Positions 4,154-43,082 of a stretch of DNA of 64,000 nt are shown in pieces. The stretch is from contig NZ_CP134499.1 of NCBI RefSeq assembly GCF_031764535.1, positions 4,030,001 through 4,094,000 on the forward strand. Direction: 5' to 3'. Source of the stretch: Pseudomonas sp. SG20056. GTDB lineage: Bacteria > Pseudomonadota > Gammaproteobacteria > Pseudomonadales > Pseudomonadaceae. The notes beneath the pieces were generated by a model. The model was given only the letters and a program-made list of their open reading frames with translations, was not told the origin of the DNA and did no database searches. Each line of letters opens with the position of its first letter. The first letter of the stretch is position 1. The position numbers were made by a program, and so were the translations under genes.

Positions 4154-11591
<7,438 letters not shown>

Positions 11592-36710: not shown

Positions 36711-37004
36711 GCTCTGGCGGACTGACGGGGGCCTGAGCATAGGCTCCCGGTTGCCGTTGCAACCATCAACTGACACCCATCACGCCCTGGCAACAAATTG
36801 CCGACCGACTGTGACGATCATCGCAGATCGCCATCACGCCTCAACAAGCGCTGTTTTTTTTCATTAGCCTTGCGCCCCCAACACTGCCCGCAGTGCTGGT
36901 TGCAGCCGTTTTCTCCCGTTCAAACAGCGCCTCCAGCCTTTCCTTGCCCGACTTTGCGTCGGCTGCGGCAGTGCATTACGGCCACACCTACTGATGCCCT
37001 AGCC

Positions 37005-39257
37005 ATGATCACGCCAGCCCTGCGCCCGCTTCTCCGCCTGCTACTGTTGCACACCGCCCTGTTGCTGAGCATCGCCAGCCAGGCCAATGCGTCGACCGAA
37101 GCATCTGCACAGAGCGAGGACAGCTGGACCATCAATATGCAGAGTGCGGAGATTCGTGACTTTATCGAGCAGATCTCCAGCATCAGCGGGCAGACCTTTA
37201 TCATCGACCCACGGGTAAAAGGTCAGGTCACCGTAATTGCTCAGCAGCCGATGAACATTGCTGAGGTCTACAAGCTGTTTCTCTCAGTGATGAGCACCCA
37301 TGGTTTCGCCGTGATGCCCCAGGGCAATCAGCTGAGCATCATCCCCAGCAGCGAGGCCAAGACCACCGCCGGCAGCCGTGGCAACCTGGAAACCCGCGTG
37401 CTGCAGGTGCAGCATGGCGCCGCCAACGATTTGTTGCCGCTGATCCGCCCGCTGGTCGCCAACCATGGTCACCTGGCCGCCGTGCCTTCATCCAACAGCC
37501 TGATCATCAGCGACACTCCGGCCAATATCGCCCGCATCGACGAAATCATCCGCCAGCTGGACAGCCAGAATCAGGAAGACTTCAGCGTCTATGACCTGCG
37601 CCACGCCTGGGTCCATGAGCTGGCAGCGGTGATCAACAGTTCGCTGAAGAATGTCCAGGCCAGCGGTGCCCAGGTAATCGCCGATACCCGCGCCAACCGC
37701 CTGCTGCTGCTCGGCCCCAGCGACGCCCGCGCGCGCCTGTTGAAATTGGCACAGAGCCTCGACACGCCCAGCTCGCGTTCAACCAATACCCGGGTTATCC
37801 GCCTGCGCCATGGTGATGCCAAGGAGATGGCGAAAACTCTCGGCGACTTCGGCGACAACCTGAGCCAAAGCCAGGGCAGTGAAAACGCCACACCGCTGAA
37901 GCTGATGATCCGCGCCGATGAAAGCCTCAATGCCATCGTCATCATGGCCGAAGCCGATATCGTCAATATGTTCGAGGACCTGGTGCGCCAACTGGACATA
38001 CCCCGCGCCCAAGTGCTGGTGGAGGCGGCCATCGTCGAGATGTCCGGCGATATCAATGACGCCCTTGGCGTGCAGTGGGCCATCGATGGCCGCAACGGCA
38101 GCGGTGGCCTGGGTGGCGTCAACTTCAGCAACACAGGGCTGTCGGTCGGTACCCTGCTCGGCGCCATCGCCAGCGAAAACCCCGCAGAGCTGGCCAAAGC
38201 GCTGCCCAACGGGGCGATTTTCGGGGTCGGCAACGACAATTTCGGCGCCCTGATCACCGCGCTGTCGTCGAACGGCAAAAGCAACCTGCTCTCCACCCCG
38301 ACCCTGCTGACGCTGGATAACCAGGCCGCCGAGATTCTGGTCGGGCAGAACGTACCGTTCCAGACCGGTTCCTATACCACCGACGCCGCGGGCTCGAGCA
38401 ACCCCTTCACCACCATCGAACGCAAGGATATCGGCGTCACCCTCAAGGTCACCCCACATATCAATGAAGGCGCCACCCTGCGCCTGGTGATCGAGCAGGA
38501 AATCTCCTCCATCGCCCCAAGCACTGGGCTGAATGCCCAGGCCGTGGATCTGGTGACCAACAAGCGCTCGATCAAGAGCACCGTGCTGGCCGATGACGGC
38601 CAGGTGATCGTGCTCGGCGGTCTGATTCAGGACGACATCACCAGCAGCGAGAGCAAGGTGCCATTGCTCGGTGATATTCCCGGAGTCGGCCGGCTATTCC
38701 GCTCGACCCGCGAAGCCCGGCAAAAGCGCAACCTGATGGTATTCCTGCGCCCGACAGTGGCGCGCGACGGGGTCGGGCTGGCCAACCTGAGCCTGGGCAA
38801 ATACCGTGACCTGCGCCTACTCGGTCAGGCCAACGGTTACGACCATCTGCCGCAGCAGGCCCATGCTCTGTTCGATCAGGGCATTGAGGCACCCGCGACC
38901 GATCTGCGCCAGCCGGCCAAAGCCATCCCGGCAAAACCGAGCAAGACCTTGATCGAAACGCCAAAACCTGTCGACCACAGAACCCTGGGCGATGGCCGTG
39001 GCGGCGAAAGCAAACCCAAGGTTGCAGCGCGCCGCCATACCATCCAGCTGGTTGAAGGCAGCAGCCGCGAATTTATGCAGGCCCTGCTCGAACGCCATCC
39101 CAAACAGCCGCTGCGTCTGGCCGAACGTAATGAAGCCGGGGAAACCCGCTATGCCGTGCTTTATGGCAGTTACCCGAGCCGTGAAATGGCGCTCAAAGCC
39201 CTCGCCGCCCTGCCCGAACAGCTGCCCAAACGCAGCGCCAGCGCCCAGCCCGAGTAA
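37005..39257 (+). CDS. Orphan type II secretion secretin (GspD-like) with SPOR-like C-terminus
   Basis: The 750-residue product has a signal sequence (about 1-33), an N0 domain (INMQSAEIRDFIEQIS), N1-N3 repeats (about 125-350) with the typical VIADTRANRLLLLG and IIRQLD motifs, and the secretin channel (about 380-615) with STPTLLTLDNQAAEILVGQNVPF split here as STPTLLTLDNQ and VGQNVPFQTGSY, and VPLLGDIPGVGRLFRS. In place of a usual pilotin-binding S-domain it ends with a linker and a SPOR-like module (YAVLYGSYPSREMALKALAAL), a fold that binds denuded peptidoglycan. No other T2SS core genes (gspE-M) are near. The ATG at 37005 is the only start giving a signal peptide directly; the frame is open from 36798. 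Confidence 0.88.
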   Translation: MITPALRPLLRLLLLHTALLLSIASQANASTEASAQSEDSWTINMQSAEIRDFIEQISSISGQTFIIDPRVKGQVTVIAQQPMNIAEVYKLFLSVMSTHGFAVMPQGNQLSIIPSSEAKTTAGSRGNLETRVLQVQHGAANDLLPLIRPLVANHGHLAAVPSSNSLIISDTPANIARIDEIIRQLDSQNQEDFSVYDLRHAWVHELAAVINSSLKNVQASGAQVIADTRANRLLLLGPSDARARLLKLAQSLDTPSSRSTNTRVIRLRHGDAKEMAKTLGDFGDNLSQSQGSENATPLKLMIRADESLNAIVIMAEADIVNMFEDLVRQLDIPRAQVLVEAAIVEMSGDINDALGVQWAIDGRNGSGGLGGVNFSNTGLSVGTLLGAIASENPAELAKALPNGAIFGVGNDNFGALITALSSNGKSNLLSTPTLLTLDNQAAEILVGQNVPFQTGSYTTDAAGSSNPFTTIERKDIGVTLKVTPHINEGATLRLVIEQEISSIAPSTGLNAQAVDLVTNKRSIKSTVLADDGQVIVLGGLIQDDITSSESKVPLLGDIPGVGRLFRSTREARQKRNLMVFLRPTVARDGVGLANLSLGKYRDLRLLGQANGYDHLPQQAHALFDQGIEAPATDLRQPAKAIPAKPSKTLIETPKPVDHRTLGDGRGGESKPKVAARRHTIQLVEGSSREFMQALLERHPKQPLRLAERNEAGETRYAVLYGSYPSREMALKALAALPEQLPKRSASAQPE

Positions 39258-39264
39258 GCGTAAC

Positions 39265-39291
39265 GCCGTTGCTGCAGCGCGCAGCAACGGC
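39265..39291. repeat. Perfect stem-loop just after the secretin stop codon
   Basis: GCCGTTGCTGC, a 5-nt loop and GCAGCAACGGC form an 11-bp perfect stem 7 nt past the secretin stop. No T-run follows. It may define an mRNA 3' end or limit read-through into the downstream genes. Confidence 0.6.
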
Positions 39292-39480
39292 ATGACCGAG
39301 CTGCCTGGAACTGTGCCCCATTTCCAGCGAGACGTGGCACACCCTGCATATGAGACCAGCGTTCAAATTAAACAAGCTGGCCCTGCCCATACCCTCTGCC
39401 TGTGAACTGCATAGCGAATAACCGCACAGGCTCTACCTAGACTGCGCGACTTCAATTTCCCAGACTAATGGAGCAGTCGC

Positions 39481-40161
39481 ATGTCAAAACGCTGGATCAC
39501 AGCCGCAGTCGCCACCGCTATTGTCGGCGGCGTCTTGGGGGTCGTGCTCTCGGCTGACCTTGAGCAGCCAAAGCCAACCCAAGCAGCATCAAATGACAGC
39601 CAGAGCGGCAAACCACCCACCCCCAGCCAGAGCACTGCCGCGCCCGCAAGCCAGGCAGCCAGCCAAGGCGCCAGCGGCGTCTCCACCCTGCAGACCAAAC
39701 CACCCGTGGCCACCAACAGCGCCGCGCAGACCACGCTCTGGGATGCCCAGTCGCTGCAAGAAACCGAGAGCAACGGCATCACCCAGCACCTGACCCAGGT
39801 TGATCCACAGCAACTCAACAACCTGGCGGTCGGTCAGGTGCTTTCTCTGGCACTGCCGGGGCGTAGCAGCCCAACCCGCGCCACCCTCGGCGAAACCCGC
39901 AACACCGCCGGCAGCGCCGTATGGCAAGGCAGCCTGATGGATGGCGACGAGGTGGAAAGCATGACCCTGGTCAAGGGTGCGCTGGAGACCCATATCACCG
40001 TCGCCACGCTCGACGGCAGCCTGTCGATCATCATCGATAACGCCACCGGCAAGACGGTGATCACCGATGAGAACCAGCTGGTAATGCGGGCCGATCCCAA
40101 TGACCACCTGCACTACGACCATAAAGAACTGGCCCCACTGCCACCGCCCGCTCAGGGCTGA
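39481..40161 (+). CDS. Membrane-anchored protein resembling a detached metalloprotease propeptide
   Basis: The 226-residue product starts with an uncleaved-looking signal anchor (about residues 6-25, ITAAVATAIVGGVLGVVLS), then a Ser/Pro/Gln/Ala-rich linker to about 85, then a compact domain with LAVGQVLSLALPG, VWQGSLMDGD, and a strand-rich stretch around HITVATLDGSLSIIIDN. That pattern resembles the N-terminal prodomain of bacterial reprolysin-like metalloproteases (from memory, not searched). The protease encoded 36 bp downstream has no prodomain of its own. I infer an in-trans propeptide, foldase or inhibitor facing the periplasm. Confidence 0.62.
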   Translation: MSKRWITAAVATAIVGGVLGVVLSADLEQPKPTQAASNDSQSGKPPTPSQSTAAPASQAASQGASGVSTLQTKPPVATNSAAQTTLWDAQSLQETESNGITQHLTQVDPQQLNNLAVGQVLSLALPGRSSPTRATLGETRNTAGSAVWQGSLMDGDEVESMTLVKGALETHITVATLDGSLSIIIDNATGKTVITDENQLVMRADPNDHLHYDHKELAPLPPPAQG

Positions 40162-40197
40162 TCACCGTCTTACTCAAATCGCACAAGGAACGCTGAT

Positions 40198-41994
40198 ATG
40201 AAGAAAGTGCAATGGCTCTCTGCCCTCGCACTGGCCCTGACCGCCCATAGCGCCCAGGCCAACCCGCAAACCGTCGACATCATGGTGCTCTATACCAAAG
40301 ACGCGCAGAGCCTGCCCAACGGCCGCGATATCGACGCACGCATCGCCAGCTACATCGAATACACCAACACGGCCTACGCCAAAAGCGGCGTGAATATCCG
40401 CCTGCGCCTGGTACACAAGCAGCTGCTTGACTGGGCCAACTACTACGATGTGTCCGGCGCCAACCTCAACAAGTTCACCGACGACGCCCAGGTAAAGCGC
40501 CTGCGTGAACAATACGGCGCCGACGTGGTACAGCTGATCAACCGTACCACCCAGGGTCAGGGTTATGGCGTCTGCGGCATCGCCTGGATGGGCACTGGCA
40601 CGAAGAACAGCGACCGCTTCAACAGCGGCGCCAAGGAAATGGCCTACGGCCTGACCGGTGTCGACTGCAGCCTCAGTACCTTCGCCCATGAAGCTGGCCA
40701 CAATATGGGCCTGCGCCACTCCTACGAGCAGGACCAGCAGGAAGGCTACTACAACGCCAACGGCCATAACGGCACCCACGAATGGAGCCGTGGCTACGGT
40801 GTCCAGGGCCAGTTCAGCACCATCATGGCCTACCCCCAGGTCTTCGGCGCGCGCCGTCAGGCTCCGGTATTTTCCAACCCACGGCTGAATGACGCTGACT
40901 GCGCCAACCAGCCTTGCGGCATGCCCGATCGTTCGGATGCCGTACGCTCGCTAAATACCATGGCCGCGCAGATCGCCGCCTTCCGCGCCACCCAGGTGCC
41001 GGTCACCACTAACCCTGGTACCGGCAACCCAACCACGCCACCGGCCGAACTGCCCTGGTGCAGCAAGCCAGCGCTCAAGGGCCTGGTCAGCAACGGCGAA
41101 TTCAACAGCAACGAGGGCTGGCGCGCGCTGTTCGGTCAGGCGCAGCTGAGCCTGGTCAATGTGGCCCTGAACTGCCGCGACAACGCGCTGCAGATGGATG
41201 CTCAGGCCTTCGACGTACTGGCCACACCGGTCACCGGCCTGACTACCGGCGCGAAATATCGCCTGAAAGCCAAAGCCATGCTCAAGGCCCGCGACAGCCG
41301 TGAGAACGTACGCGTGGCGATCCTGCAGGAAAGCATCGACGGCCGCTTTACCTACAGCGCCGAACAGACGGCAAACCTGTCGGTGACCGGCAACGAGTTC
41401 AGCCGCCTGGAAAAATCCTTCACCTACACAACGCCAAGCAACGTGCGCAATCTGTATGTAGCGATCTGGAGCGACAGCGGCAGCAGCCTGCTGGTCGATG
41501 AAGTCGAGCTGCAGGAAGTCCAGGCCGCTGCGCCGCCGACGCCGCCAGCACCGCCCCAGTTCGGCTGGAACTTCGAGAACGGCATTGGTGGCTGGTCAGG
41601 CTTCCATGGCAGCGCCCGCGCCAGCACGTTCGCCAACGGCAGCCGCCAGGCGCTGGAAGCCTATCAACGTCAGTACGAAGGCTCTGGCGCAAGCGTCAGC
41701 CTGCTCGGTAATGTTCAGGCTGGTAATCGTTATCGCGTCTCGGCCGACCTGAGTATTGGTCGCAGCAGTGCGGTCAGCGCCATCGCTTATGCCTACCTGT
41801 ATGTCGAAGACAGCAATGGCCGTGGCCAGTACCTGCCGCTTGGTCAGCGCACCACCCGGGGTGGCAGCTGGAGCAAGTTGCAACATGAAGTACAGCTACC
41901 AGCCGGCACCCTGCGCCGCGCCGATCTGCTAATTCTTGGCACACAACGCGGGCAGTCGTTGTTTATCGACAACGTCAGCATCGGCAAGCTGTAA
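40198..41994 (+). CDS. Secreted zinc metalloprotease (metzincin, reprolysin-like) with two C-terminal beta-sandwich domains
   Basis: The 598-residue product has a Sec signal peptide (about 1-20, ending AHSAQA) and a catalytic domain from about 22 to 265. This contains VDIMVLYTKDA, the zinc site HEAGHNMGLRHS (HExxHxxGxxH) and the Met-turn STIMAYP, which place it in the metzincins near families M12/M72. A Thr/Pro/Gly linker follows (VPVTTNPGTGNPTTPPAE). Two carbohydrate-binding-like beta-sandwich modules come next, one with NGEFNSNEGW and LLVDEVEL, the second with NGIGGWSGF and LFIDNVSIG. AAGGAA precedes the ATG. A strong terminator follows. The likely export route is type II secretion, given the flanking secretin and GspC-like genes. 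Confidence 0.9.
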   Translation: MKKVQWLSALALALTAHSAQANPQTVDIMVLYTKDAQSLPNGRDIDARIASYIEYTNTAYAKSGVNIRLRLVHKQLLDWANYYDVSGANLNKFTDDAQVKRLREQYGADVVQLINRTTQGQGYGVCGIAWMGTGTKNSDRFNSGAKEMAYGLTGVDCSLSTFAHEAGHNMGLRHSYEQDQQEGYYNANGHNGTHEWSRGYGVQGQFSTIMAYPQVFGARRQAPVFSNPRLNDADCANQPCGMPDRSDAVRSLNTMAAQIAAFRATQVPVTTNPGTGNPTTPPAELPWCSKPALKGLVSNGEFNSNEGWRALFGQAQLSLVNVALNCRDNALQMDAQAFDVLATPVTGLTTGAKYRLKAKAMLKARDSRENVRVAILQESIDGRFTYSAEQTANLSVTGNEFSRLEKSFTYTTPSNVRNLYVAIWSDSGSSLLVDEVELQEVQAAAPPTPPAPPQFGWNFENGIGGWSGFHGSARASTFANGSRQALEAYQRQYEGSGASVSLLGNVQAGNRYRVSADLSIGRSSAVSAIAYAYLYVEDSNGRGQYLPLGQRTTRGGSWSKLQHEVQLPAGTLRRADLLILGTQRGQSLFIDNVSIGKL

Positions 41995-42010
41995 AACTCC
42001 GGCCCCACCA

Positions 42011-42045
42011 AAACCCATGGCTGCGTCAGCAGCCATGGGTTTTTT
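42011..42045 (+). terminator. Strong rho-independent terminator between the protease and the GspC-like gene
   Basis: AAACCCATGGCTGC, a GTCA loop and GCAGCCATGGGTTTTTT form a 14-bp perfect stem followed by T-residues. It lies 16 nt before the GspC-like ATG on the same strand, leaving no room for a separate promoter downstream of it. Confidence 0.92.
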
Positions 42046-42060
42046 CATTGAGGAATAGCC

Positions 42061-42591
42061 ATGTTGCAACCCAGCAAACCAGCCCTGCCAGTCGTCTCGG
42101 AGCACTTGATCACAGGCCTGTGCCTGCTGCTTCTGCTGGCTGGCAGTATCAGCCTGGCCTCTCAGGGCGCAGCGTTCTGGCGATTGCTGCAGAGCCCGGT
42201 CACTCTGGCCCCCGTGCAACAAGCTCCGCTACAGCCAGTGATAGACCAGCAGCAGCTGGCCGCGCTGTTCGGCGCACCTCTAGTCAACAGTAGCGACACG
42301 GCTCCGGCCACGTCCCTGCAACTGACCTTGATGGCCGCCTTCAATCACCCACAAAGCAGTCGCTCCAGCGCAATCATTGGCCGGGCTGGCCAAATCCCTG
42401 AGCGCTTTATGGTGGGCGCAACCATCGCTCCCGGCGTCACTCTCGACAGCGTGCAACGCCAGCACGTTACCCTGCGCCGGCATGGCCGCCGCGAGAGTCT
42501 GCACTTTCCGGACAAGTCCACTCAGCCGCTTACAAGTGCAGCCACACCCGGCGCGACAGAACTGCTCAGCCAGGCATCCAGCCACGACTAA
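42061..42591 (+). CDS. GspC-like type II secretion protein
   Basis: The 176-residue product has a short cytoplasmic N-terminus, one membrane helix (about 16-35, LITGLCLLLLLAGSISLAS), a periplasmic linker and a homology-region domain. The segment LQLTLMAAFNHPQSSRSSAIIG, given here by position near residues 81-102, continues with ERFMVGATIAPGVTLDSVQ and HVTLRRHGRRESLHFP, the pattern of the GspC HR domain that contacts secretin N0. It has no PDZ domain, as in some Pseudomonas GspC proteins. GAGGAAT precedes the ATG. With the upstream secretin it makes a GspC/GspD pair bracketing the protease genes. Confidence 0.75.
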   Translation: MLQPSKPALPVVSEHLITGLCLLLLLAGSISLASQGAAFWRLLQSPVTLAPVQQAPLQPVIDQQQLAALFGAPLVNSSDTAPATSLQLTLMAAFNHPQSSRSSAIIGRAGQIPERFMVGATIAPGVTLDSVQRQHVTLRRHGRRESLHFPDKSTQPLTSAATPGATELLSQASSHD

Positions 42592-42989
42592 AGGCCCGTA
42601 GCGGGTATCTCGATCGGCACGATCTCGACGCGATCCTGCTGGGATATCAGCTGAAACGCCCGCAACTTGGTCTCACCATAGCCACGCGTATTGGTGAAAC
42701 GGTCGTGCACCAGCACAATCAGATCCGGATAAGGAAACACCCCAGGGTTGAAATGCCCGACCGCCAGCAGCTCGCTGGTTTCCCGCGCGACCAATGGCGG
42801 CTTCAGTCGCACCAGTTGGCCGCGATGATAAACCCGGTAATGGCTGCTCTTGCCCAAGGCAAAGCTGCTTTCGTTGAACTGGCGAATCGACCAACTGCCA
42901 GCCACCTCCTGAATGCTGCGCTCGCCTTGAGTGCTACAGCCACTCAACAACACCGCCGCCAGTAGCAGGGCCTGCCTCAACTTGCTCAT
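42588..42989 (-). CDS. Small putative lipoprotein of unknown function
   Basis: The 133-residue product has a lipoprotein signal (MSKLRQALLLAAVLLSGC, lipobox LSGC with Cys at 18). The rest shows no domain I recognise: VAGSWSIRQFNESSFALG, YRVYHRGQLVRLKPP and DLIVLVHDRFTNTRGYGE suggest a mixed alpha/beta fold. GGGAGGG lies before the ATG at 42989, so I prefer it over the 43019 start. Its 3' end overlaps the convergent GspC-like gene by 4 bp. Whether it works with that secretion module (for example as a pilotin) cannot be told. Confidence 0.75.
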   Translation of the reverse strand: MSKLRQALLLAAVLLSGCSTQGERSIQEVAGSWSIRQFNESSFALGKSSHYRVYHRGQLVRLKPPLVARETSELLAVGHFNPGVFPYPDLIVLVHDRFTNTRGYGETKLRAFQLISQQDRVEIVPIEIPATGL

Positions 42990-43082
42990 ATACCCTCCCT
43001 GGCATGACCTGAATGACAAATAGAAATCGACGTAACGCAGGCAGTCTCAGCCATGTGCGCTCGCATCACTGTAGTTGCCCGC

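Follow-up and report, generated by a model that had tools for sequence, protein, structure and literature searches.

Why should a pseudomonad keep genes for a secretin and a GspC-like protein on either side of a metalloprotease gene, far away from its type II secretion system (T2SS)? The question is raised by a locus of Pseudomonas sp. SG20056 (positions 37005-42591 of a 64-kb stretch of its chromosome, here called the window), where four open reading frames (ORFs), all on the + strand, follow one another in the order gspD-bamI-mep72-gspC (ORF listing). The bracket of secretin and GspC genes around the protease and its partner is confirmed at this position. We lean toward the explanation that GspD and GspC form a second, exchangeable GspCD set on the sole Xcp platform of this bacterium, an alternative exit that travels with its metalloprotease cargo; the gate function, the cargo specificity and the SPOR-guided placement of the secretin are putative elements of this explanation. 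A preliminary description of this DNA had interpreted the locus as a portable adaptor module with a substrate-specific gate, and the data presented below support that interpretation in part.

An extra GspC/GspD pair and the Xcp platform

The likely start codon of gspD is the ATG at position 37005; the listed TTG at 36798 would add a leader in front of the signal peptide. GspD passes the cut-off of the T2SS secretin equivalog TIGR02517 (518 bits; cut-off 351) and stays below the cut-offs of the PilQ and MshL models (profile search). It comprises a signal peptide, an N0 domain, three Secretin_N domains (N1-N3), the Secretin domain and, at its C-terminus, a peptidoglycan-binding SPOR domain (Pfam; Table 1), which the resident XcpQ lacks according to the domain comparison. 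GspD is 64% identical to XcpQ; across N0-N3 the identity amounts to 58-60%, versus 71-94% inside the module type. The HR domain of GspC matches PF11356 (63 bits; cut-off 27; Pfam) and follows a single transmembrane (TM) helix whose segment starts at residue 16. No PDZ match was found in the 176 amino acids of GspC (Pfam), and comparison with XcpP revealed that a C-terminal region present in XcpP is missing. GspC also misses the full-length equivalog TIGR01713 (14.3 versus 101.6 bits), and we therefore call it a short, HR-only GspC; XcpP-type or short GspC proteins need not reach this cut-off. Collectively, the family profile tests bear out the earlier statement that an orphan secretin and an HR-domain GspC-like protein flank a metzincin and its partner. 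The accompanying claim that no gspE-M genes are nearby holds for the components tested, as no other secretin, GspC, GspF or GspL is encoded in the window.

The 4.48-Mb genome, represented by one contig, contains a single full T2SS (Xcp) at C1:1594500-1610500, 2.47 Mb away from the block. A separate gspC (218 aa) and gspD (684 aa) belong to this locus, divergent from the genes that start with gspE, which rules out that the genes of the block are the main gspC and gspD of a scattered T2SS. A further secretin gene near 351 kb lies in a gene layout typical of an MSHA-type pilus locus and is thereby excluded as part of a second T2SS. GspL is present in one copy in this genome and in each tested genome of the genus that carries the block. 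With a single GspL and platform available, the extra GspCD set must use the Xcp platform if it works in a T2SS at all. A single inner-membrane platform, as postulated for the pair, is thus available, and the proposed likeness to the extra XphA/XqhA pair fits the presence of a second GspCD set whose GspD resembles XcpQ. We consider it probable that the pair serves as an alternative GspCD for Xcp, onto which it would assemble. Independently of this, one other genome (G008; L101, L102, L103, L193) was seen to carry one GspL and at least four gspD-like genes, one of them an apparently rearranged gspD, as well as tandem gspC genes.

It is improbable that the pair serves another machine or task, such as a type IV pilus or a SPOR-directed septal scaffold, instead of forming an Xcp gate. 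SPOR domains typically target proteins to septal peptidoglycan, and the genome does carry type IV pilus, MSHA-type and Tad-type genes; however, the secretin passes the T2SS-specific cut-off and not those for PilQ and MshL, its partner is a GspC, and the pair is linked to T2SS-type proteases.

The linked protease and its partner

Mep72 passes the cut-off of its equivalog NF052434 (777 bits; cut-off 645; profile search), contains Reprolysin and CBM_4_9 domains (Pfam), and carries the zinc motif HEAGHNMGLRH (residues 164-174; HExxHxxxxxH form). BamI, encoded immediately upstream, likewise passes that of NF052435 (260 bits; cut-off 180). A hydrophobic TM segment begins at residue 6 of BamI, and in the AlphaFold model it is followed by a disordered linker and an all-beta domain (residues 83-204) that is confident for the most part. 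In a structure search, the top PDB matches of this predicted fold were chains of the chaperone-substrate complex 6O38 (E 4e-6), which we take to be the CpaA-CpaB complex. Weaker matches (E-values from 0.015) were obtained with the metzincin proenzyme profragilysin, presumably with its prodomain. BamI hence shares with CpaB-type chaperones an N-terminal TM anchor, a gene position beside the protease and, by prediction, the fold; this likeness suggests that it works in a similar manner and does not by itself prove homology. The earlier notion of a propeptide partner is upheld at the level of the fold, where BamI resembles a T2SS chaperone and, less closely, metzincin proenzymes. BamI relieves the toxicity of Mep72 and binds it, according to the available excerpt of PMC4334185, and Table 1 of PMC4713064 counts the neighbor of Mep72 among the putative T2SS chaperones. 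Taken together with the fold match, these reports lead us to conclude that BamI is best seen as a predicted trans-acting prodomain or chaperone of Mep72, which ties it to the CpaB/prodomain class of chaperones. A fusion in cis of BamI homologues to distant M72 proteases was not found; the significant matches were all separate ORFs. Each of the genomes represented by L146, L147 and L148 (g61 genomes) contains two divergent, adjoining bamI-mep72 operons.

The explanation that we favor can be put as a sequence of steps. Mep72 would reach the periplasm by Sec, where membrane-anchored BamI, acting as a CpaB-type trans prodomain or chaperone, would fold it and hold it inactive. Next, the short GspC would use its HR domain to dock GspD, through the N0 domain of the latter, onto the pseudopilus and the shared GspE-F-L-M platform, and the secretin, tethered to peptidoglycan via its C-terminal SPOR domain, would release Mep72. 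Binding of GspD N0 by the HR domain of GspC is established (PMC9239104 and references therein). While the choice of T2SS substrates remains unclear, GspC and GspD have been reported to contact and discriminate the substrate (PMC7949064), so that a GspCD set inherited together with a protease is a reasonable candidate for a cargo-linked gate.

Conservation of the block and related cassettes

The gene order hemW-DUF3392-gspD-bamI-mep72-gspC recurs in several other Pseudomonas [L080, L081, L082 (= G210), L085 (= G701), G633, G165, G375]. The block is also kept in P. alcaliphila JCM 10630 (L083 = G233), where DUF3392 has moved to a position after gspC, and L084 has the mep72-gspC half of it at a contig start. 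All gspD-mep72-gspC blocks that we found share a single site in the chromosome, and the trees have the appearance of vertical descent; the label "portable", in the sense of a mobile unit, is therefore not supported, with relocation visible solely on a longer time scale. In G375, whose Mep72 is only 66% identical, a replacement of the cargo was ruled out, because the trees of Mep72 and GspC are in agreement and G375 forms a long branch.

Pairwise dN/dS values range from 0.05 to 0.19 for GspD and from 0.15 to 0.45 for GspC, the most distant GspC values being near saturation; both genes are under purifying selection. Since the block is conserved in several species and these values are low, the bracket reflects more than chance. 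It is very improbable that the two genes are merely left over from an old gspCD duplication, decaying and devoid of a current function: their absence from two lineages in which bamI-mep72 persists at the site and a terminator-like hairpin that could limit gspC expression would suit such a remnant, but the reading frames are open in the complete module loci and dN/dS is well below 1 for both genes.

Among 399 genomes of the genus surveyed for Mep72, nine carriers with a total of 10 places were recovered. Half of these places (5/10) are bracketed, two lie at the same site without gspD and gspC (G360; G374, which matches P. fluvialis L086), and three lie elsewhere without the pair; a wider draw on the family yielded further bamI-mep72 loci of the latter kind, lacking the pair. 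As two species keep bamI-mep72 at the site without gspD and gspC, the pair is not obligatory for bamI-mep72. Comparison of G360 with P. alcaliphila shows that both genes are missing from G360, and, judged from the trees, their joint loss would be simpler than a repeated joint gain on either side of bamI-mep72.

The closest relatives of the pair were found in G075. On its contig C48, xcpR is followed divergently by an extra gspD with a SPOR tail and then by the N-terminal portion of an M66 protease gene, which runs to the contig start (L192). The end of contig C35 (L121) supplies the remainder of an M66 gene, after which come an HR-domain gene, an extra gspC of 158 aa, xcpP and xcpQ; metZ- and purF-type genes lie farther out, and the extra gspD and gspC are thus placed inside the xcp locus. 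The two contig ends do not overlap, each has one half of the M66 gene, and by eye they appear to carry the two ends of a single IS30-like element. The G075 gspD is sister to the module gspDs (99%) and, in a separate tree, the 158-aa gspC is sister to the module gspCs (98%); a bracket of this type thus seems to enclose another protease in G075. A layout of GspD, metalloprotease and HR-domain protein recurs with the unrelated M66 type. Intact M66 copies are present in other genomes, and the protein comprises Peptidase_M66, TagA and ricin-lectin domains. A SPOR-gspD followed by the M66 protease and a small HR-domain protein was also found in other genera: four g61 genomes have it at an orphan locus that adjoins a fumarase-type gene, whereas in two g64 genomes, and likewise in G374 of P. 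fluvialis type, it neighbors xcpR. The SPOR-gspD of G374 reads as two ORFs and may hence be frameshifted or misassembled; since g61 genomes have several GspL genes, their orphan GspD is not assignable to one platform.

In G568, an M23 protease gene comes after a short gspC and a gspD whose tail is SPOR-like (16.6 bits, under the cut-off); the order presumably resembles xphA-xqhA-lasA of strain PAO1, and the locus is probably that of xphA-xqhA. At L187, whose gene order we take to be that of xphA-xqhA, GspC is short and the tail of GspD SPOR-like, which recalls the block described here. Counter-examples are G479, where a SPOR-gspD has no protease neighbor, and G701 and G647, which have M66 without gspD. 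The XcpQ-type loci inspected had no such protease neighbors, as judged by eye and by Mep72 and M66 searches only, not by a full domain survey. Of five loci first labeled as orphan GspCD pairs (L195-L199), three (L196, L197, L199) were dropped because xcpR lies about 6 kb away; L195 and L198 are at most candidates.

The predicted core of the small M66-linked HR protein resembles the HR domain of GspC as seen in 3OSS, a complex of GspC with GspD (TM-score by target 0.78; E 2.5e-3), and the protein is possibly an undescribed T2SS accessory protein. It is encoded downstream of M66 at L180:3638-4192, L184:10361-10903, L208:5962-6477, L121:7317-7868, L183:3045-3509 and, in L209/L210, near 5700-6250; its core also matches PilP, and the protein closes with a conserved EEL-x-x-LG-x-C motif.

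A cargo-linked exit is favored by the single platform, the conserved block and its purifying selection, the M66 neighbors, the identities across N0-N3, the BamI fold and the precedents of XphA/XqhA and of Mep72 as an Xcp substrate; in addition, the flanking genes gspD and gspC are present or absent together, and the GspC and GspD trees match, with G075 as the same sister genome. Several points weigh against it. Most of the Mep72 genomes found lack a linked pair and some of these have only one T2SS-type GspD; the Mep72 protein of P. aeruginosa is secreted through Xcp and is thus an Xcp substrate (PMC4334185); the SPOR-tailed GspDs form no supported single clade in the tree; and the adjacency of the two G075 contigs is deduced from the IS30-like ends on both, which also implies that this M66 copy is interrupted. 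Of the claim that the pair travels with its substrate, the conserved linkage to a T2SS-type substrate stands; obligate dependence is not supported, in view of P. fluvialis, G360, the solitary bamI-mep72 loci elsewhere and the route reported for P. aeruginosa Mep72. We regard a real preference of the pair for its linked protease as nearly evenly balanced, with a slight tilt toward doubt.

An unlikely but serious competitor is a spare GspCD set that serves many exoproteins on Xcp, perhaps under other growth conditions, with its linkage to mep72 reflecting chromosomal neighborhood and no cargo preference. Such a generalist would be in line with the environmental regulation of the alternative Xcp subunit XphA/XqhA (PMC6567927) and with Mep72 proteins elsewhere that manage without a linked pair; yet here the two genes enclose the protease and are kept or missing as a unit, the sister pair likewise flanks a metalloprotease, and SPOR-GspDs repeatedly adjoin metalloproteases. 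We retain the cargo-linked alternative exit as the favored explanation. More tentatively, and with somewhat greater reserve than for the cargo preference itself, the pseudomonads may possess a family of cassettes in which SPOR-GspD and short GspC flank their own metalloprotease, the cargo being exchangeable (M72/M66, perhaps M23) and each cassette forming a dedicated, peptidoglycan-anchored exit on a shared T2SS platform. If true, specificity becomes testable by swapping GspCD pairs on one platform, as the sister pair holds an unrelated protease. The recurrence of this kind of gate beside unrelated secreted proteases in related species suggests that bacteria can equip one secretion machine with several cargo-linked exits.

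Regulatory features and comparison with known systems

Upstream of bamI, TGTGAACTGCATAGCGAAT reads as a CRP/Vfr-type half site whose center lies about 29 bp from a -10-like TAGACT; this promoter-like element is retained across the module loci, and likewise in two loci that lack gspD. Vfr control is known from P. aeruginosa (PMC4222646); the element agrees with it, by a half-site match only. A strong hairpin with a T-run separates mep72 from gspC, and the ribosome-binding site of gspC follows within about 10 bases. The hairpin is conserved among the module loci although both of its arms have changed in sequence, the T-run being absent in L083 (Table 1). In a consensus scan, promoter matches did not exceed expectation, and the hairpin was not among the features reported. 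If it terminates transcription, gspC would be made by read-through at a lower level than mep72, and its conserved position suggests such a read-through control.

Table 1. Features of the gspD-bamI-mep72-gspC block (window coordinates).
Feature	Position	Strand	Basis
Orphan T2SS secretin GspD, 750 aa	37005..39257	+	TIGR02517, Pfam domains, XcpQ identity
SPOR-coding part of gspD	39030..39215	+	PF05036, 30.4 bits (cut-off 21)
Hairpin without T-run, directly 3' of gspD	39265..39291	+	Read from sequence
Promoter-like region of bamI, conserved	39401..39443	+	TGTGAACTGCATAGCGAAT and -10-like TAGACT
BamI, 226 aa, putative TM-anchored periplasmic partner (inhibitor/chaperone) of Mep72	39481..40161	+	NF052435, fold match 6O38
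Mep72, 598 aa, secreted metzincin with two C-terminal carbohydrate-binding domains	40198..41994	+	NF052434, Reprolysin, CBM_4_9, motif
Terminator-like hairpin with T-run, mep72/gspC gap	42010..42045	+	Sequence, conserved in module loci
Short GspC, 176 aa	42061..42591	+	PF11356, TM helix, XcpP comparison

A lipoprotein-like ORF of 143 aa (42588-43019, - strand) is convergent with gspC and overlaps its end by four bases; it has no confident family match and was seen in some, not all, module loci.

Several known systems share parts of this arrangement. BamI and Mep72 of P. aeruginosa (PA2782-PA2783) are encoded by the same two genes in the same order, and both NCBIfam equivalog cut-offs are passed by the proteins studied here; the available excerpts of PMC4334185 and PMC4222646, however, describe no GspC or GspD adjoining that operon. 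CpaA and CpaB of Acinetobacter likewise represent a T2SS-secreted, metzincin-like protease and an adjacent TM-anchored chaperone, but sequence identity is low (14-16%), and cpaB lies downstream of cpaA whereas bamI lies upstream of mep72. CpaB is needed for secretion (PMC4713064), while for BamI the relief of toxicity and the binding of Mep72 are what the excerpt of PMC4334185 reports.

XphA/XqhA of P. aeruginosa is likewise a GspC/GspD pair encoded apart from the xcp genes of a bacterium whose Xcp system is complete, and with Xcp it builds a functional hybrid (PMC6567927). In the block described here, in contrast, gspD and gspC are split by bamI-mep72 and their order is reversed, and the tree does not support a common SPOR-GspD clade. 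The Legionella secretin LspD, named in 2022 as the sole known T2SS secretin with a SPOR domain (PMC9239104), carries this domain before N0, whereas that of the GspD studied here is located at the C-terminus; with this protein, the C-terminal anchoring of a T2SS secretin by SPOR becomes testable.

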